This document shows positions 27,499 to 35,103 of a DNA stretch of 62,701 nucleotides, piece by piece. A program made the position numbers and the translations under genes. Where the stretch lies: assembly GCF_000787775.1 (NCBI RefSeq), contig NZ_BBPM01000036.1, positions 8,370-71,070 of the forward strand, written 5' to 3'. Within the stretch, counting starts at the first letter, position 1. Every line of letters starts with the position of its first letter. The notes below the pieces were generated by a model. It was not told the DNA's origin and did not search any database. It saw only the letters and a program-made list of their open reading frames with translations. This DNA is from Streptacidiphilus carbonis. Lineage in GTDB: Bacteria > Actinomycetota > Actinomycetes > Streptomycetales > Streptomycetaceae.

Positions 27499-27667
27499 CG
27501 GTTCCTCCTCGCGCTGTCTGGCGCGGGCTCCGGGGGCACTGAGGGAGAGAATGCGGGCAGAAGCAACGGGCAGGGGCGGCGCGGGAGGCAGTGGAGGAAC
27601 CGGGAGAACCCCGGACGCCTGCACTGGTGCGCAGCACGAGCCCGACGCCCGCAGCGCACTGCCTCCC
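27498..27667 (-). promoter_or_regulatory. Expression platform of the FMN riboswitch
   Basis: Three 11-base strands on the minus-strand RNA can pair in two exclusive ways. GGGAGGCAGTG (complement 27657-27667, the 3' side of the aptamer) is complementary to CACTGCCTCCC (complement 27583-27593). CCGGTTCCTCC (complement 27593-27603) is complementary to GGAGGAACCGG (complement 27498-27508), the leader-ORF ribosome binding site. Without FMN the first helix should form and hinder the second, leaving the site open. With FMN the aptamer closing stem takes AGTG, the first helix is lost and the site is hidden. The complementarity is exact; the mechanism is inferred. Confidence 0.65.
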
Positions 27668-27780
27668 ATCCGGACTTTCACCGTCGGTCCAGGAGTTTCA
27701 CCTGGTCAACCGACCGCTGGAAGCGGCCGGGTCGCGGACTGTAACCGCCGGTTCGGAATTACACCGACCCCGGAGTGCGC
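27654..27780 (-). promoter_or_regulatory. FMN riboswitch (RFN element)
   Basis: Read on the minus strand, the conserved RFN blocks are all present: GGGGTCGGTGTAATTCCG, AACCGGCGGTTACAGTCCGC, TGACCAGGTGAAACTCCTGG and ACCGACGGTGAAAGTCCGGA followed by TGGGAGG. The closing stem GCGCACT (complement 27774-27780) pairs with AGTGCGC (complement 27654-27660). It lies about 240 bases upstream of ribE and controls the riboflavin operon in response to FMN. Upstream, TTGCCA and CAGACT on the minus strand are a possible promoter. Confidence 0.95.
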
Positions 27781-28074
27781 AAACGTCGTAACTTGTGTCA
27801 TCAGTCTGCCACGGCCCGACCACTTTTTGGCAAGACCGACCGCCGGCTGGACATGTGGCCTCTGTCACCCCGGCCCTGCGTTTCAATCCCTGGACGGCTC
27901 GGTGGCGGATCTCTGTCGCCCCGCTGACGAATCAGCAGGTCGGAGCAGTGGGGCCGGGGCCGCCCGATGGCGCAACACTGCCGCAACACCACAGTGGCCG
28001 ATGCGTCGCTAGGGTCCTCGCCAACAGCAGACGGCAGACACCGGGCATCCGGACCGCGGCGAGAGGAGACCCCG

Positions 28075-28857
28075 ATGGCAGCCCCCGTCGAGTTCCCCCG
28101 CCGCAGCGCGGTGGCCGCCGCGGCCGGACGCCGGCTGCGGGCCGACCGGGCCAGGCAGCTGGCCGACCTACTGCGGCGGCAGGTGCTCTCCGGCGCCTTC
28201 GGCACCGGGGCGCTCCCGCACGAGGATCGGCTCGCCACCGAGTACGGGGCGTCCAGGAACACCGTGCGCCAGGCGCTGGACCTGCTGCGCGACGAGGCGC
28301 TGGTGGAACGGGTGCCGGGGCTGGGCACCGTGGTCCGCTGCGCCAAGGTGCCGCACGGACTGGACCGGCTGATGGGTCTGGCCGAGACGCTGCACCGGCA
28401 CGGCCGGGTCACCAACGAGGTGCGCACCGCCGCGCCGGTGGCCGCGCCAGGGCCGGTGGCCCACCGGCTCGGGCTGACGCCGGGCACCGAGGTGCTCTAC
28501 GTGGAGCGGCTGCGCCGGCTGGACGGTCTGCCGCTGTCGCTGGACCTGACCTATGTCCCCATCGACCTCGGCCTGCCGCTGCTGGAGGCCGACCTGGAGC
28601 ACACCGACGTGTTCCGGCTGCTGGAGCGGTTCAGCGGCCGTGCCCTGGGCTCCGCCGAGATCACCCTGGAGGCCGTCAGCGCCGACGCGCACTCCGCGGC
28701 GGTGCTGGAGGCTCCGTGCGGAGCCGCCCTGCTGATGCTGGAGCGGCTCACCCGTCTCGACGACGGCCGTCCGGTGGACCTGGAGTTCATCCGGTTCCGC
28801 GGCGACCGCATCGCCATGACCGGGGTGCTGCACCGGGACGACCCGTCCCGGGCCTGA
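28075..28857 (+). CDS. GntR family regulator (HutC/UTRA type)
   Basis: A 260-residue regulator. The N-terminal winged helix shows LADLLRRQVLSGAFGTGALP and TEYGASRNTVRQALDLLRDE; the UTRA ligand domain starts near residue 100 and includes GTEVLYVERLRRLDGLPLSL and VDLEFIRFRGDRIAMTG. UTRA domains bind small effectors such as sugars, amino acids or phosphonates. The ATG at 28075 follows GAGAGGAG; an upstream in-frame start lacks such a site. It is the first gene of a six-gene operon and probably controls it. Confidence 0.9.
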   Translation: MAAPVEFPRRSAVAAAAGRRLRADRARQLADLLRRQVLSGAFGTGALPHEDRLATEYGASRNTVRQALDLLRDEALVERVPGLGTVVRCAKVPHGLDRLMGLAETLHRHGRVTNEVRTAAPVAAPGPVAHRLGLTPGTEVLYVERLRRLDGLPLSLDLTYVPIDLGLPLLEADLEHTDVFRLLERFSGRALGSAEITLEAVSADAHSAAVLEAPCGAALLMLERLTRLDDGRPVDLEFIRFRGDRIAMTGVLHRDDPSRA

Positions 28858-28916
28858 CTCCCCGTCCGTTCCCCCGTCCCGCCCCTGCCATGTACAGCCA
28901 CGCCCGGGAGACCCTC

Positions 28917-29144
28917 ATGCCCCTTGTCCCGCAGCGCTCCGATGTGCCCGTGACCATCGACGAGTCCCTCTGCATCACCGGCTGCACGCTCTGCGTGGAC
29001 GTCTGCCCGCTGGATTCCCTGGCCATCGACCCGGACACCGGAAAGGCCCACATGCACGTGGACGAGTGCTGGTACTGCGGCCCCTGCGCCCTGCGCTGCC
29101 CCACCGGCGCCGTCACCGTCAACATGCCCTACCTGCTGCGCTGA
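28917..29144 (+). CDS. Two-cluster 4Fe-4S ferredoxin, AprB-like
   Basis: A 75-residue ferredoxin. The first cluster motif is CITGCTLCVDVCP, with C-x3-C in place of the usual C-x2-C; the second is CWYCGPCALRCP. It should carry electrons at low potential in the cytoplasm. The matching flavoprotein lies at the end of the same operon, and a ferredoxin plus fumarate-reductase-like flavoprotein is the arrangement of adenylylsulfate reductase (AprB/AprA). The ATG at 28917 with GGGAGA was preferred to one nine codons upstream. Confidence 0.88.
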   Translation: MPLVPQRSDVPVTIDESLCITGCTLCVDVCPLDSLAIDPDTGKAHMHVDECWYCGPCALRCPTGAVTVNMPYLLR

Positions 29145-29155
29145 GGGGACCACCG

Positions 29156-30589
29156 ATGAAGACCGGACACCTGGCCGCCACGGCCGCCGCCCTGCTCCTG
29201 ATTCCGCTGTCCGCCTGCGGGGGGCAGGCGGCCGCAGGCTCCGCCCACACCGTCACCATTACCGTCGGCTACCAGTCGCGGACCATCAACACGGTCACCG
29301 CCGGGACCCTACTGCGCTCCCTCGGCTACTTCGAGCAGGACCTGGCCGCGCTGGGCAGACGGACCGGGGTCAGCTACAAGGTCGACTGGCAGGACTACTC
29401 CACCGGCGCGCCGATCACCGCGGGCATGGTCGCCGGAAAGATCGACATCGGTTCGATGGGCGACTACCCGCTGCTGCTCAACGCGGCCAGGGGCAAGCAG
29501 TTGAAGCAGCCGACCGAGCTGGTCTCGGTCACCGGCTACAACCTGCGCGGCGCCCTCAACATGGTGGTCGCCAAACCCGACTCCCCGCTCACCGGGCCGG
29601 CCTCGCTGGCCGGGCACAAGGTCTCCACCAGCATCGGCTCGGCCGCCGACGGCACCCTGGTGCAGGCGCTGCAGCGGATCGGCGTCGACCCGAACTCCGG
29701 TATCAGCAAGCTCAACCAGCAGCCTGCGGTGGGCGCCTCGGCCCTGCAGGCCGGCTCCGCCGACGCGCTGGCGCAGTTCGTTGCCTGGCCTGGGCTGCTG
29801 GTCTTCCAGAAGCAGGCCAAGCTGGTCTACGACGGCTCAGCGCTGGACATCCCCACCTTCCACGGCGTCACCGTGCGCAGCAACTTCGCCAAGTCCCACA
29901 GCGACCTGGTCGACACCTTCCTGAAGGCCCAGATCCAGGCCACCGACTATCTGCACGCCCACCCGCTGGCCGCAGCGGAGTCGGTGGCCAAGGCCACCGG
30001 GCTGCCGCCCGAGGTGGTCTACCTCTACAACGGTGCCGGCGGCCTGGTCAGCTTCGACACGACGCTGAAGCCGCAGCTGCTGGCCGCGCTGAAGCAGGAC
30101 GTCCCGGTGCTGCGCAGCGAGGGCTCGGTCAAGGACGTCGACGTGGACGGCTTCGTCAACGACAGCTTCCTGAAGCAGGCGCTGGGCTCCGGCTACCAGG
30201 CCGCCGTCGCCCGGACCGCCAACCCGGCGCCGATCAGCGGCACCGACCCGGTCTGCGGCGGCTCCGCCGACGACCCGGCGACGGCCAGCGAGGCGTGGCC
30301 GGCCGGGGCCGGGGCCGGGGCCACCGTGCCCTTCACCACCCCGACCTGCCTGCTGAAGTACCTCAGGCAGCAGCAGGCCGTGGGCAGGTCCGTACGCGCC
30401 GCCTACGTCCCGGACGCGGCCACCGGCACCCGCTGGTTCGCCGAGGACGACGCCTGGGTGGAGAACCCCTCGGCCGCCGCGACCGCCCGATGGCTGCCGT
30501 TCACCACCCCCGCCGCCGCGCAGCAGTGGTCCGCCACCCACCCGGGCAGCCGCACCGTCGGCTACCAGCAGGCCCTGGCGGGTGCCTGA
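29156..30589 (+). CDS. ABC substrate-binding lipoprotein fused to a NosL-like domain
   Basis: A 477-residue secreted lipoprotein with lipobox LSAC (Cys21). Residues about 35-355 form a periplasmic binding fold of the NMT1/TauA/SsuA class (VTITVGYQ, GKIDIGSMGDYPLLLNAARG, GSADALAQFVAWPGLLVFQK). Residues about 360-475 look like NosL, the copper lipoprotein of nitrous oxide reduction: PVCGG, FTTPTCLLKYLRQQ, VPDAATGTRWFAEDDAWVEN and LPFTTPAAAQQWSATHPGSR in the right order. The usual NosL CGM and PMG metal ligands are changed. The fusion is in one frame with uniform codon use. It precedes the permease with a one-base stop/start overlap. Confidence 0.85.
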   Translation: MKTGHLAATAAALLLIPLSACGGQAAAGSAHTVTITVGYQSRTINTVTAGTLLRSLGYFEQDLAALGRRTGVSYKVDWQDYSTGAPITAGMVAGKIDIGSMGDYPLLLNAARGKQLKQPTELVSVTGYNLRGALNMVVAKPDSPLTGPASLAGHKVSTSIGSAADGTLVQALQRIGVDPNSGISKLNQQPAVGASALQAGSADALAQFVAWPGLLVFQKQAKLVYDGSALDIPTFHGVTVRSNFAKSHSDLVDTFLKAQIQATDYLHAHPLAAAESVAKATGLPPEVVYLYNGAGGLVSFDTTLKPQLLAALKQDVPVLRSEGSVKDVDVDGFVNDSFLKQALGSGYQAAVARTANPAPISGTDPVCGGSADDPATASEAWPAGAGAGATVPFTTPTCLLKYLRQQQAVGRSVRAAYVPDAATGTRWFAEDDAWVENPSAAATARWLPFTTPAAAQQWSATHPGSRTVGYQQALAGA

Positions 30590-31473
30590 TGACCGTGCAG
30601 ACCCTGGACGCCGCAGGCGGTTCCCGGACCAACCGGCCCGAGAGCGGGCCCGCACCGGCGCCGGGCGCCGCCGGTCGCCGACTCGGATGGCGGCGACGAC
30701 TGCTGCGCACCGGCTCGGTGCTGGCCGCGCTCGGACTGTGGCAGCTGCTGACCGGACTGCAGGTGCGGCTCTGGCTGGACTTCTCCCAGCTGCCGACCAC
30801 CCTGCAGGTCGCCGACTCGCTGCGGCAGCAGGTCGGCACCGCGCTGTACTGGGAGGACCTGGGCGACAGCCTGCGCCGGATTCTGCTCGGCTTCCTGCTC
30901 GCCGCCGTGCTCGGCACCGCCACCGGGGTGCTGGTGGCGCGGTCCAGGACCGCCGAGGACCTGCTCGGACCGGTGCTGGAGCTGCTACGGCCGATCCCGG
31001 CGATCGCCCTGGTCCCAGTGGCGATCCTGTTGTTCCCCGGGACCGAGCAGGGCATCGTCTTCATCACCGCCACCGCCGCCTACTTCCCGGTCGTGGTCAG
31101 CACCCGGCACGCGGTGCGGGCGCTGTCGCCGGTCTGGGAGGAGGCGGTGCTCACCCTGGGCGGCGGCCGGCTGCGGGTGCTGGCCCAGGTGGTGCTGCCC
31201 GGTGCGCTGCCAGGCATCCTCGGCGGGCTTTCGGTCGGCATGGGCGTGGCCTGGATCTGCGTCATCTCGGCCGAGATGCTCTCCGGCCAGTACGGCATCG
31301 GCTACCGCACCTGGCAGGACTACACCGTCGTCGACTACCCGGGAGTCCTGGTCGGCATGGTCAGCATCGGGCTGCTCGGCCGGATCACCGCCGGGGCGGT
31401 CGAACTCGTCGGGCGCCGCCTCACCCGCTGGCTGCCGCCCCGCACCGAACGGAGCACCGCATGGACACCCTGA
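30589..31473 (+). CDS. ABC transporter permease (SsuC/TauC type)
   Basis: A 294-residue membrane protein with about six helices. The cytoplasmic EAA-like loop reads WEEAVLTLGGGRLRVLAQVVLPGALPGILGGL, and LRPIPAIALVPVAILLFPGTEQG is typical of sulfonate/nitrate/taurine permeases. Its TGATG overlap with the binding-protein gene and 13-base overlap with the ATPase gene show tight coupling. The N-terminal 30 residues are disordered and Pro-rich. Confidence 0.93.
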   Translation: MTVQTLDAAGGSRTNRPESGPAPAPGAAGRRLGWRRRLLRTGSVLAALGLWQLLTGLQVRLWLDFSQLPTTLQVADSLRQQVGTALYWEDLGDSLRRILLGFLLAAVLGTATGVLVARSRTAEDLLGPVLELLRPIPAIALVPVAILLFPGTEQGIVFITATAAYFPVVVSTRHAVRALSPVWEEAVLTLGGGRLRVLAQVVLPGALPGILGGLSVGMGVAWICVISAEMLSGQYGIGYRTWQDYTVVDYPGVLVGMVSIGLLGRITAGAVELVGRRLTRWLPPRTERSTAWTP

Positions 31474-32237
31474 CCGCCGCCTCCGCTCCGGTCACCGACC
31501 CGCGCCCCGGGCTTGCCCTCGGTCTGCGCCGGGCCGAGCTGGGCCGCCCCGGCGCACCCGTGCTGCGCGGCGTCGACCTCGACGTCCGCCCGGGCGAACT
31601 GCTGACCGTGGTCGGCCGGTCCGGCTGCGGCAAGTCGACCCTGCTGCGCACCCTGGCCGGGCTGCTCCCGACGCTGTCCGGAGAGGCCACCGCCGACGGC
31701 GCGGCGATCACCGGCCCCGACGCCGACCGGGCCCTGGTCTTCCAGGAGGACGGCCTGCTGCCCTGGCGCAGCGTCCGCGGCAATGTCGAACTCCCGCTCG
31801 CCATCCGGGGCCTGGGCCGGGCCGAGCGCCGAGACCAGGCCGCCGGCTGGCTGGCCCGGGTCGGACTGCCGGACCGCGCCCGCGACCTGCCGCAGCGGCT
31901 CTCCGGCGGCCAGCGCCAGCGGGTGCAGCTGGCCCGGGCGCTGGTCGGCTCCCCCAGGGCGGTGCTGATGGACGAGCCCTTCGGCGCCCTGGACGCCAGG
32001 ACCAGGGGCGAGATGCAGCTGCTGCTGGTCGATGTGCTCGGCGAGACCAGGGCCACCGTCGTCTTCGTCACCCACGACGTGGACGAGGCGCTGCTGCTGG
32101 GCGACCGGGTGGCACTGCTGGGCGGCGGCCCGGTCCGCACCCTGGACGTCCCGAGCCCGCGGGACCCGGACGCCGCAGCGCTGCCGGAGACCCTGTCCCT
32201 GCGTGAGCAGATCCTCGCCTCACTGCGGCAGTCCTGA
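31461..32237 (+). CDS. ABC transporter ATPase (SsuB/TauB type)
   Basis: A 258-residue ATPase: Walker A GRSGCGKSTLLRTLAGLLP, Q-loop FQEDGLLPWRSVRGNVELPL (the PWR pattern is typical of nitrate/sulfonate/taurine ATPases), signature LSGGQRQRVQLARALV, Walker B AVLMDEPFGALDA and switch FVTHDVDEAL. It drives the adjacent permease. The operon continues to the flavoprotein gene 52 bases downstream. Confidence 0.95.
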   Translation: MDTLTAASAPVTDPRPGLALGLRRAELGRPGAPVLRGVDLDVRPGELLTVVGRSGCGKSTLLRTLAGLLPTLSGEATADGAAITGPDADRALVFQEDGLLPWRSVRGNVELPLAIRGLGRAERRDQAAGWLARVGLPDRARDLPQRLSGGQRQRVQLARALVGSPRAVLMDEPFGALDARTRGEMQLLLVDVLGETRATVVFVTHDVDEALLLGDRVALLGGGPVRTLDVPSPRDPDAAALPETLSLREQILASLRQS

Positions 32238-32289
32238 CCGCATTCTCCTAACTTATCGTCAACATGCCTTGCTCCGAAGGGAATTCACC

Positions 32290-35103
32290 GTGCCCAGCAC
32301 TCCCCCGGCCGGCATCGCCATGGCCGTCCCCGCACTGGCCGACGCGGCCGAGCTGAGCTGCGACGTGCTGGTGATCGGCGGCGGCACGGCGGGCACCATG
32401 GCCGCCCTCACCGCAGCCGAGCACGGCGCCCAGGTCCTGCTGCTGGAGAAGGCCCATGTCCGCCACTCCGGGGCGCTGGCCATGGGCATGGACGGGGTCA
32501 ACAACGCGGTGGTGCCCGGCCGGGCCACCCCGGAGGACTACATCGCCGAGATCACCCGCGCCAACGACGGCGTGGTCAACCAGCGCACCGTGCGGCAGAC
32601 CGCCGAACTGGGCTTCGCCATGGTGCAACGGCTGGAGCGCTACGGGGTGAAGTTCGAGAAGGACGAGCACGGCGAGTACGCGGTGCGCCAGGTGCACCGC
32701 TCCGGCAGCTATGTACTGCCGATGCCGGAGGGCAAGGACGTCAAGAAGGTGCTCTACCGAGTGCTGCGGCAGCGGCACATGCGCGAGCGGATCACCATCG
32801 AGAACCGGGTGATGCCGGTGCGGGTGCTCACCGACCCGGAGTCGGGCCGCGCCGTCGGCGCGGCCGGCTTCCACACCCGCACCGGGCAGTTCACCGTGGT
32901 CCGGGCCGGCGCGGTGATCCTGGCCACCGGGGCCGCCGGGCGGCTGGGCCTGCCCGCCAGCGGCTATCTCTACGGCACCTACGAGAATCCCACCAACGCC
33001 GGGGACGGCCACTCGATGGCCTACCACGCCGGGGCGGAGCTCAGCGGCATCGAGTGCTTCCAGGTCAACCCGCTGATCAAGGACTACAACGGTCCCGCCT
33101 GCGCCTACGTCGCCAACCCCTTCGGCGGATACCAGGTCAACCGGGAGGGCGAGCGCTTTGTCGACTCGGACTACTGGTCCGGCCAGATGATGGCGGAGTT
33201 CGCCGCCGAGGTGGACTCCGCCCGCGGTCCGGTCTACCTCAAACTGAGCCACCTCCCGGAGGAGTCGGTGGCCGCGCTCGAGGGCATCCTGCACTCCACC
33301 GAGCGCCCCACCCGCGGCACCTTCCACGCCGGTCGCGGGCACGACTACCGCACCCACGACGTGGAGATGCACATCTCCGAGATCGGCCTGTGCGGCGGCC
33401 ACTCGGCCTCCGGGGTCTGGGTGGACGAACATGCCAGGACCACCGTGCCGGGCCTCTACGCGGCCGGCGACCTGGCCTGCGTCCCCCACAACTACATGAT
33501 CGGCGCCTTCGTCTACGGCGACTTGGCCGGCGCCGACGCGGCCCGTACCGCCGCTGCACGGGCCGCGGACCCCGACCGCCCGGCCCGGTCGGCCGAGCTG
33601 TCGCAGGAGCAGCTGCGGGCCGCCCACGAGCTGGTCTACCGTCCACTGCTGAACCCGGAGGGGCCGCCGCAGCCCCAGGTCGAGTACAAGCTCCGGCGCT
33701 TCGTCAACGACTACGTGGCTCCGCCCAAGACCGGCGCCCGGCTGTCGCTGGCGCTGGAGCACTTCGAGCGGATGCGCGGCGAGATCGCCGCGATGGGCGC
33801 CACCACCCCGCACGAGCTGATGCGCTGCGCCGAGGTCGGCTTCATCCGGGACTGCGCGGAGATGGCGGCCCGCTCCTCATTGGCCCGCGAGGAGAGCCGC
33901 TGGGGCCTCTACCACCAGCGCCTGGACGTCCCCGAGCGCGACGACAAGGACTGGCTGCGCCACCTCAACCTGCGCAAGCGCAGCGGCGACGGCGCGATGG
34001 AGTTCCTGCTGCGGCCGGTCTCCCCGTACCTGGTCCCGGTGGAGGGCTTCGAGCCCGATCCCGGGCTGCCGGTGGAGCTGATCGGCGAGGTGCACGGCGA
34101 GCAGGTGGCGGTGGCCGGATCGATCGGCGCGGCGCCGCGCCCGTTCACCCCGGTGGCACAGCCGACCGCGGCAGCGGGGCCGGCCGCTGCCGCCGGCCCC
34201 AGGCTGCTGGAACTGCTGGGGCTGGCCGAGTCGCAGCCGGACCTCGACCGGCTGCGCCGCTATCTGGCCGACCCGGACCCCGCGGTCCGGCGGACCGCCG
34301 TGTCCGTGCTCACCGAGTCCGTCCCCGAGGGCACGGGCCCTGAGCTGGCCCGGGCCCTGGCCGACCCGGACGCCGAGGTGCGGGGCACCGCCGCGGCCGG
34401 ACTCCGCGAGCTGGTGGAGGTGCTGGCCGCCGAACCCGGTTCCCCGTCCCCGTTGGAGGCCCCGCTGCTGGCGGCCCTGGCCTCGGCCGACCCGGTGGTC
34501 CGGGCAACCGCCCTGGACCTGCTGCGCGCGTTGCGGTTGGGCTCGGCCGCCGTTTTCGCCGCCGGGCTGGACGACCCGGAGGCATCGGTGCGGGTGCAGG
34601 CGGTACGGGCGCTGGTCTCCCTGGACGCCGTGGACGTCCTACGGGCCGCCGTCGGCGACCCGGTCCGCGAGGTGCGGATCGCACTGGCCCAGGGGCTCGG
34701 CCGGATCTCCCGACCCCGGCTCGCCGAGACCGCCGCAGAACTCGTCCGGCTGAGCGGGGACGACGACCCACTGGTCCGGGCTGCGGCGCTGGAGGCCGCG
34801 GGGAGCATGCCCGGCGGCAGCAGCCCGGCATTGTCGTCGGCGGCGCTGGCCGCCGTGGGCGACGCCGCCTGGCAGGTACGGAAGGGCGCGGCGGCGGCTA
34901 TGGCGCGGGTGGAGGGCGACGCCGGCTCGGCGGCCCTGCTGGGGCTCCTGGCCGACGCCCACCCGGACGTCCGCAAGGCCGCAGTGATCGCGGCGGTACC
35001 CCGGGCCGGGCGTCAGCCTGCGCTGGCGGCGGCGTTGGCCGACGCAGCGGTTCAGGACCCCGACGCCGACGTGAGAGCGTTCGCCCGGCGGGTGCTGAGC
35101 TAG
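32290..35103 (+). CDS. Fumarate/adenylylsulfate-reductase-like flavoprotein fused to HEAT repeats
   Basis: A 937-residue protein from GTG 32290 behind AAGGGAA. Residues about 18-520 are an FAD-binding fumarate-reductase-type fold: DVLVIGGGTAGTMAALTAAE for FAD, RHSGALAMGMDGVNNAV, VILATGAAGRLGLP and VPGLYAAGDLACVPHNYMIG. The helical region to about 640 matches the succinate dehydrogenase/AprA C-terminus. From about 640 to the end there are some ten HEAT (PBS-lyase-type) repeats, for example LARALADPDAEVRGTAAAGL and ALLGLLADAHPDVRKAAVIA. With the operon ferredoxin it probably forms an AprAB-like redox pair. The HEAT part may be a docking surface. Substrate unknown. Confidence 0.85.
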   Translation: MPSTPPAGIAMAVPALADAAELSCDVLVIGGGTAGTMAALTAAEHGAQVLLLEKAHVRHSGALAMGMDGVNNAVVPGRATPEDYIAEITRANDGVVNQRTVRQTAELGFAMVQRLERYGVKFEKDEHGEYAVRQVHRSGSYVLPMPEGKDVKKVLYRVLRQRHMRERITIENRVMPVRVLTDPESGRAVGAAGFHTRTGQFTVVRAGAVILATGAAGRLGLPASGYLYGTYENPTNAGDGHSMAYHAGAELSGIECFQVNPLIKDYNGPACAYVANPFGGYQVNREGERFVDSDYWSGQMMAEFAAEVDSARGPVYLKLSHLPEESVAALEGILHSTERPTRGTFHAGRGHDYRTHDVEMHISEIGLCGGHSASGVWVDEHARTTVPGLYAAGDLACVPHNYMIGAFVYGDLAGADAARTAAARAADPDRPARSAELSQEQLRAAHELVYRPLLNPEGPPQPQVEYKLRRFVNDYVAPPKTGARLSLALEHFERMRGEIAAMGATTPHELMRCAEVGFIRDCAEMAARSSLAREESRWGLYHQRLDVPERDDKDWLRHLNLRKRSGDGAMEFLLRPVSPYLVPVEGFEPDPGLPVELIGEVHGEQVAVAGSIGAAPRPFTPVAQPTAAAGPAAAAGPRLLELLGLAESQPDLDRLRRYLADPDPAVRRTAVSVLTESVPEGTGPELARALADPDAEVRGTAAAGLRELVEVLAAEPGSPSPLEAPLLAALASADPVVRATALDLLRALRLGSAAVFAAGLDDPEASVRVQAVRALVSLDAVDVLRAAVGDPVREVRIALAQGLGRISRPRLAETAAELVRLSGDDDPLVRAAALEAAGSMPGGSSPALSSAALAAVGDAAWQVRKGAAAAMARVEGDAGSAALLGLLADAHPDVRKAAVIAAVPRAGRQPALAAALADAAVQDPDADVRAFARRVLS

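Follow-up and report, generated by a model that had tools for sequence, protein, structure and literature searches.

The window studied here, the whole analyzed stretch of 62,701 nucleotides from Streptacidiphilus carbonis, contains six genes on the plus strand at 28075–35103 that, judged from open reading frame (ORF) coordinates and family scans, constitute one compact operon with a regulator, an importer and a redox pair, and this operon is the subject of our analysis. The first gene (28075..28857) encodes a GntR-family regulator with a UTRA ligand domain of the HutC/PhnF type (PF07702, 111.9 bits; PF00392, 53.9 bits). It is followed by the gene of a 2x[4Fe-4S] ferredoxin (28917..29144; PF12838, 42.4 bits), for which a longer start at 28890 is possible; as the inner ATG at 28917 coincides with the beginning of eight of ten aligned homologues, the latter start is the likelier one. 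The third gene (29156..30589) codes for a lipoprotein-type substrate-binding protein that consists of a TauA/SsuA-like domain (TIGR01728, 112.3 bits at a cut-off of 163.5) and a C-terminal tail, of which residues 378–477 (30287..30586) are NosL-like (PF05573, 15.7 bits). The other components of this ATP-binding cassette (ABC) transporter are a permease of the SsuC/TauC/NtrB type (30589..31473; PF00528, 62.2 bits), for which every NCBIfam model scored below its cut-off, and an ATPase of the TauB/SsuB type (31461..32237; PF00005, 105.5 bits), for which the best TauB-type NCBIfam model reached 211.3 bits at a cut-off of 357. The last gene (32290..35103, GTG start) encodes a flavin adenine dinucleotide (FAD) flavoprotein with an AprA/fumarate-reductase fold (NF010374, NF006131) that is fused to HEAT repeats (residues 632–936, 34183..35097; PF13646, 97.8 bits in five stretches). 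The binding-protein and permease genes overlap by exactly one base (30589) and the permease and ATPase genes by exactly 13 (31461–31473), and gaps of 11 and 52 bases separate the ferredoxin gene from the binding-protein gene and the ATPase gene from the flavoprotein gene, respectively. The place of the six genes, their arrangement as one unit and the UTRA regulator had already been described in an earlier reading of the sequence alone (the sequence-only reading), and the coordinates and family matches bear this out.

The check named beforehand was whether these genes are kept together in relatives, and its outcome was strongly positive. A scan of a genome collection gave at least 597 stretches, at least 588 of them relatives; we retained the 80 best, which by their names all belong to Actinobacteria. 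The full order of GntR, ferredoxin, binding protein with tail, permease, ATPase, flavoprotein and HEAT recurs in 74 of these 80 loci and is therefore more than chance; it is compact in 72, while in two (L074 and L090) the set is complete but interrupted. Among the six incomplete loci, four are broken by contig ends (L041, L045, L101, L116), one is a 4.3-kb contig on which the ferredoxin gene adjoins the flavoprotein gene and the importer is not present (L105), and one is an operon without a GntR gene (L055). Altogether, a GntR gene precedes the operon in 75 of the 80 loci. In the interrupted locus of Antrihabitans sp. YC2-6 (L074:2098-6881), a second SsuABC-like importer as well as asparaginase-like and M20-peptidase-like genes, named by eye, lie between the ferredoxin and binding-protein genes, and M20 or amidase genes are annotated also near L123, L037, L032 and L038. 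In Nocardia salmonicida (L090:7747-9183, minus strand), the permease and ATPase genes are separated by an ORF that was called TnpB-like by eye from its zinc-ribbon Cys pairs near the C-terminus. Five of the 31 genomes searched near the window have a true orthologue (G000, G019, G020, G027, G030), as do none of the 13 other genomes searched from the window's own genus, and in a phylum-wide sample the family cut-off was passed by 8 of 246 genomes, compared with 0 of 14 control genomes. This patchy distribution fits loss or transfer, and the operon has probably spread horizontally. The set is thus widespread in relatives, and the notion that it is peculiar to its source genome has to be given up.

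The gene set spans at least three bacterial phyla. Among plasmid records, 51 gave a match, and 19 of these regions were fetched, 18 of them annotated; these 19 loci belong to 14 Proteobacteria, four Cyanobacteria and one Tsukamurella. All 19 contain the flavoprotein, the ferredoxin and the HEAT part, with the ferredoxin gene directly 3' of the flavoprotein gene in 17, and with the HEAT part fused only in Tsukamurella (L031). In 16, the importer lies inside the fetched stretch; no importer match was found within the fetched stretches of L032 and L033, and in that of L036 permease and ATPase matches are on the opposite strand and a binding protein was not found. Additional genes annotated in the 18 loci encode DUF971/GBBH-like proteins (nine loci) and Mrp/NBP35 proteins (four loci). 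Among the Actinobacteria, the genome G019 (L142) has separate adjacent genes for the flavoprotein (580 aa) and, directly after it, the HEAT protein (343 aa); most Actinobacteria seen have the fusion, and in the other phyla HEAT has a gene of its own, as it does in G019. The Acidithiobacillus caldus plasmid pTcM1 (L036), which carries the flavoprotein–ferredoxin–HEAT set, is typed mobilizable. Two further plasmid loci have defence-like neighbours, namely annotated nucleotidyltransferase, ThiF, Mov34 and SAVED genes in Tsukamurella (L031:14278-18564) and annotated Qat genes in Methylobacterium (L037:1-3717).

The sequence-only reading had proposed an AprAB-like redox pair and a HEAT-fused flavoprotein, and both proposals hold. 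The fusion is certain, as NF010374 (PRK13800) spans the whole protein with 1528.7 bits at a cut-off of 1196; NF006131 is matched with 854.7 bits at a cut-off of 587, and NCBIfam labels the flavoprotein as fumarate reductase only. Its closest solved relative is the alpha subunit of the 3'-phosphoadenosine 5'-phosphosulfate (PAPS) reductase MtPAPSR from Methanothermococcus thermolithotrophicus (8a8o_A, 9.8e-53), followed by dissimilatory AprA, and with a profile the alignment covers almost the entire MtPAPSR alpha subunit (1.1e-83). We compared the residues that we take to form the active site, or the site for adenosine 5'-phosphosulfate (APS), in AprA—N74, E141, W234 and H398—in 100 flavoproteins, comprising the window, the 80 genome loci and the 19 plasmid loci. 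The equivalents of N74 and H398 are Asn and His in 100/100, where the AprA number H398 rests on the alignment with MtPAPSR, the sole one in which it is printed. W234 is represented by Tyr and Q145 by Val in 100/100, and E141 by Ser in 82, Leu in 9, Met in 5 and Val in 4. The role of AprA Q145 and the catalytic residues retained in MtPAPSR are described in PMC10322725, where MtPAPSR is presented as an FAD/Fe-S PAPS reductase that releases sulfite. In the ferredoxin, the eight cysteines and Trp61 (numbered from 28890) are invariant in 11/11 sequences, and Trp61 aligns without gaps to position 42 of the MtPAPSR beta chain (8a8o_C). In that paper, a Trp42 is proposed for electron transfer (PMC10322725), and from the numbering it follows that this would be the beta-chain residue matching Trp61. 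The ferredoxin is thus probably the beta subunit of the flavoprotein, and the pair, which presumably forms a complex, looks like an APS-reductase-type alpha–beta enzyme with a new substrate site. The predicted structure of the flavoprotein is poor, with a mean predicted local distance difference test (pLDDT) score of 66 and values below 50 for residues 215–382, and in the same model the HEAT region consists of helical repeats with high pLDDT.

With regard to the importer, the proposed SsuABC/TauABC type is supported by the binding protein, for which TauA and SsuA rank first by sequence profile and by predicted structure. The profile matches TauA at 2.1e-26, and TauA and SsuA are the closest solved structures to the predicted structure (pLDDT 86.8), although the protein stays below the family cut-offs (SsuA_fam 112.3 of 163.5, TauA 78.5 of 304.25). 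According to PMC6906117, TauA holds the sulfonate with Gln30 and main-chain amides, and the amine with Glu106, Thr132 and Asp205. The TauA chain numbering in our alignment is offset by 21 from that paper, and with this shift the five other named TauA residues match the letters; Gln30 is not covered by the printed TauA alignment and was mapped through the SsuA alignment. Its equivalent is Gln in 92 of 94 binding proteins, the other two rows being without that stretch, whereas Glu106 is replaced by Asn (94/94), Asp205 by His (94/94) and Thr132 by Ala (85/94). The sulfonate grip thus appears to be kept and the amine grip appears to be lost, which is why we infer a non-amine sulfonate as the ligand. 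The NosL fusion that had been noted holds, with limits: the tail is NosL-like, as its model retrieves a genuine NosL at 2.3e-7 in a reciprocal search in a set of 20 ORFs, while the match is weak in the window copy and the Cys is not conserved. Of the five relatives scanned with PF05573 (gathering cut-off 24 bits), two from Cyanobacteria score 24.1 and 29.2 bits and the three others 14.9 to 19.6 bits, and the window copy scores 15.7 bits. The best-kept tail residues include W381, R414, Y417, D420, G424 and F449 (each in at least 90 of 94). We take conserved Cys to belong to the metal site of NosL, and no conserved Cys was found across the 94 tails, the best being C398 with 35/94, so that copper handling by the tail was rejected. 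A link to nitrous oxide was rejected as well, since there is no nos gene among the six genes.

The surroundings of the operon were analyzed for markers of sulfonate scavenging, defined as SsuD, LLM/NtaA, SfnB-like, TauD, TauE and YeiH. As controls, 60 random 20-kb windows were drawn from six operon-bearing genomes and 54 were used; those left out were three that overlapped other draws, one that overlapped an operon stretch, one that spanned an operon, and G223:5263292. Of the 65 actinobacterial loci with a length of 18 kb or more, 14 had flank markers, compared with 2 of the 54 controls (Fisher p 0.006, to be taken as indicative). Markers also occur in 3 of 11 further genome loci, some of which may repeat others, and in 8 of 19 plasmid loci, both sets being without a control of their own and containing loci that supplied queries (L141, L142 and four plasmid loci). 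TauE/SafE sulfite-exporter genes are annotated in 5 of the 18 annotated plasmid loci, and YeiH or a sulfate exporter in 3. Several neighbourhoods, in which the genes were named by eye or by annotation, are evident examples: Streptomyces anandii (L078) has SsuABC-like genes upstream and Rrf2, acyl-CoA-dehydrogenase-like, SsuD, flavin mononucleotide (FMN) reductase and LLM genes downstream, SsuD and SsuABC-like genes are neighbours in G019 (L142), NtaA/DmoA, acyl-CoA-dehydrogenase and SsuA genes are neighbours in Cupriavidus (L121), and sulfate and sulfonate importers and TauD in Sinorhizobium chiapasense (L127). On the window's own contig, a run of NtaA/LLM-type monooxygenase genes at 71417–76364 (window-equivalent 63048–67995), about 28 kb downstream of the operon, follows ABC-importer-like genes at the window's end. 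Its NtaA/LLM trio resembles the trio that adjoins the operon in G020 (L141), where one LLM gene is 84% identical to a gene of the run, and another gene of the run shares 73% identity with the NtaA gene of L078. At this distance from the operon, the run gives weak support to a sulfur function.

Upstream of the GntR gene, 86 bases 5' of its start, lies a putative operator, a direct repeat GCGCAACA-N5-GCAACA with an 11-base period (27970..27988, plus strand). The repeat GCGCAAYA-N5-GCAACA occurs in 31 of 111 operon loci, the window included, and in 0 of the 54 control windows; among the 111 are the 11 further genome loci, some of which may duplicate others. A stricter form is found once per genome, at the operon, in four of five genomes; in the fifth (G158) it was not found, although the operon is present. 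In L055, which is without the GntR gene, the repeat precedes the ferredoxin gene. Three cyanobacterial loci have a LysR regulator fused to a C-terminal sulfonate-binding-protein-like domain, in each case on the minus strand (L039:6661-8661, L040:6307-8343, L128:6646-8661), an unusual one-component sensor. In L040, this domain and the binding protein of the importer itself share 37% identity over 265 residues (E 1.5e-58). The fusion suggests that the same, unmodified ligand may be sensed in the cytoplasm, and since the regulator carries a binding-protein-like domain, import of the unmodified ligand fits. The GntR gene also adjoins a divergent riboflavin operon preceded by an FMN riboswitch (27652–27782, minus strand; RF00050, 97.7 bits at a gathering cut-off of 66.2). 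A riboflavin link of the six genes was rejected, because the riboswitch belongs to that divergent rib operon and, by eye, no rib cluster is among the clusters common to at least six of the 80 loci.

Taken together, the evidence points to sulfur rather than to nitrogen or carbon, and it is likely that the operon has a role in sulfur metabolism. As an overall reading, we tentatively propose, at somewhat less than an even chance, a sulfur-scavenging operon for the uptake of a non-amine sulfonate and the ferredoxin-driven reductive release of sulfite. The lipoprotein would capture a sulfonate without the amine of taurine, and the permease and ATPase would bring it in intact. In the cytoplasm, the FAD flavoprotein and its dedicated 2x[4Fe-4S] ferredoxin would form an alpha–beta complex, in which electrons from a cellular ferredoxin or from reduced nicotinamide adenine dinucleotide phosphate (NADPH) would pass through the clusters to the FAD, and which would cleave the sulfonate reductively to sulfite for ordinary assimilation. 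Whether fused or separate, the HEAT part would probably aid in assembling or holding the complex, as probably would, in the other phyla, a DUF971 protein or an Mrp/ApbC iron–sulfur carrier. The GntR–UTRA protein would turn the operon on upon sensing the compound. The sequence-only reading had also judged the imported compound itself to be the probable target of the redox pair, and we infer the same. A reductive direction is suited by the genes for FdxA and a ferredoxin–NADP reductase near the Methylobacterium set (L037), and next to the pTcM1 set (L036) there are genes for FdxA and a 1153-residue pyridine-nucleotide oxidoreductase.

Several observations weigh against this proposal, above all with respect to the exact chemistry of the redox pair, in which we have rather limited confidence. 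The equivalent of AprA R265, which we take to be the Arg of the APS site that grips the sulfate or SO3 group, is Leu in 100/100 flavoproteins, and the loss of this residue in every sequence makes the chemistry the weakest step. As R265 is changed to Leu and W234 to Tyr, each in 100/100, the chemistry of AprA may not carry over. Moreover, we know of no precedent for a flavin-driven direct reductive cleavage of an unactivated C–S bond. The possible electron donors described above are neighbours in one plasmid locus each, and in 0 of the 16 other annotated ones. With regard to the flanks, L078 supplied a marker query and yet sits among the 65 loci, and without it 13 of 64 loci have a marker (p 0.011); 51 of the 65 are without one, 2 of the 54 control windows also carry one, no such marker lies within the 62.7-kb window, and because the loci are related the enrichment figures are indicative.

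In one alternative, the flavoprotein would have the activity of a fumarate reductase or a dehydrogenase and act on the carbon skeleton of the imported sulfonate, transferring hydride to or from a C–C or C–O position, with sulfite freed later by an unlinked enzyme. Many of the solved-structure relatives are hydride-transfer enzymes, the loss of the Arg265 equivalent agrees with it, and six more Arg/His positions are invariant in the alignment (P0004 R339, R342, H346, R349, R354, H400; 100/100). However, sulfur rather than carbon is the site of action in the closest solved relatives, and no constant catabolic neighbour was found in the 80 genome loci, inspected by eye, or in the 18 annotated plasmid loci, so that we regard this alternative as unlikely. 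Quite improbable is the intracellular reduction of an imported non-sulfonate, such as a nitrogen compound, a thiamine precursor, a carboxylate or a phosphonate. Ligands of the NMT1 superfamily are diverse, both amine-binding acids of TauA are changed, thiamine-synthesis genes adjoin the set in Rhizobium N324, as do genes for an ammonium transporter and glnK in Aquabacterium, and binders of nitrate, bicarbonate, pyrimidine and pyrroloquinoline quinone appear among the structure matches; these rank lower, however, than TauA and SsuA, which are the top matches by sequence and structure, and the sulfonate Gln is kept, the flanks are enriched in sulfur genes, and sulfite exporters occur. An APS or PAPS reductase for sulfate assimilation, or a reverse, sulfite-oxidizing AprBA for sulfite disposal, is very improbable despite MtPAPSR and dissimilatory AprA as closest solved relatives and the sulfite exporters in some neighbourhoods, and the assimilatory role is rejected on residues and context: R265 (Leu), W234 (Tyr) and Q145 (Val) are each replaced in 100/100 and E141 by Ser, Leu, Met or Val, ATP sulfurylase and APS kinase are not among the six genes, the flavoprotein reaches 133.3 bits at an aprA cut-off of 641.75, the genome itself has three matches to the PAPS-reductase family PF01507 (a family that also covers CysD-like proteins), and the importer is of the sulfonate, not the sulfate, type.

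Reductive sulfonate scavenging, as we propose it, would differ from the closest known systems. With MtPAPSR (PDB 8a8o), the pair shares the near full-length alpha alignment, a small 2x[4Fe-4S] partner and the correspondence of Trp61 to beta position 42, but the position of the substrate-site Arg of MtPAPSR is Leu in 100/100 operon flavoproteins, and the operon is without sulfate-activating genes and has an importer and a HEAT part. The likeness to AprAB comprises the fold family, the equivalents of Asn74 and His398 and a ferredoxin partner with Trp, while the proteins remain below the aprA and aprB model cut-offs (for TIGR02061, 133.3 bits in the window and 192 bits in an Acinetobacter relative) and the equivalents of R265, W234, Q145 and E141 are changed. 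SsuABCDE and TauABCD share the importer type and the binding-protein fold, and such genes are neighbours of the operon in L078 and L142; yet the six genes include neither an FMNH2 monooxygenase nor an Fe/2-oxoglutarate dioxygenase, and the family scans found no known sulfonatase among them, as had been noted before. Unlike in SsuABC and TauABC, the binding protein lies below the family cut-offs and bears a NosL-like tail. By score, the flavoprotein is a member of PRK13800/PRK08275, which carry a generic fumarate reductase/succinate dehydrogenase flavoprotein label; this is a label and not a tested function, and it names no specific reaction for the set. The sequence-only reading had recognized no known pathway in the set, and we likewise found no published pathway with it and no described function for it among the papers listed by searches of open-licence full texts, and other reports may exist beyond these. 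Among the papers listed, PRK08275 and PRK13800 did not occur, and the set is not mentioned in the parts covered of papers on sulfur starvation and sulfonate use (PMC8557817, PMC13352529, PMC10708946, PMC12581299, PMC7661421, PMC4501297). As NCBIfam already contains the proteins, we claim novelty for what the set does and not for the proteins themselves.

Sulfonates make up a large share of soil sulfur, and to our knowledge the aerobic routes that open them (SsuD, TauD and their kin) all require oxygen. It is possible, albeit rather doubtful, that the operon encodes a desulfonase of a new class. This FAD/[4Fe-4S] enzyme would work without oxygen, have an APS-reductase fold, be wired to ferredoxin, receive its substrate from a dedicated sulfonate importer whose adaptor tail is NosL-like, and free sulfite reductively from organosulfonates in aerobic soil bacteria and cyanobacteria, with HEAT and Mrp/DUF971 proteins as a dedicated assembly module. 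If this is true, the flavin/iron–sulfur cassette would provide the sulfur cycle with a further route and may be a new way to free sulfur for growth, and it would show how the APS-reductase fold came to be recruited to organic sulfur. A protein family that carries only the label fumarate reductase in databases would thereby gain a function, and many loosely annotated genomes would become readable in this respect.

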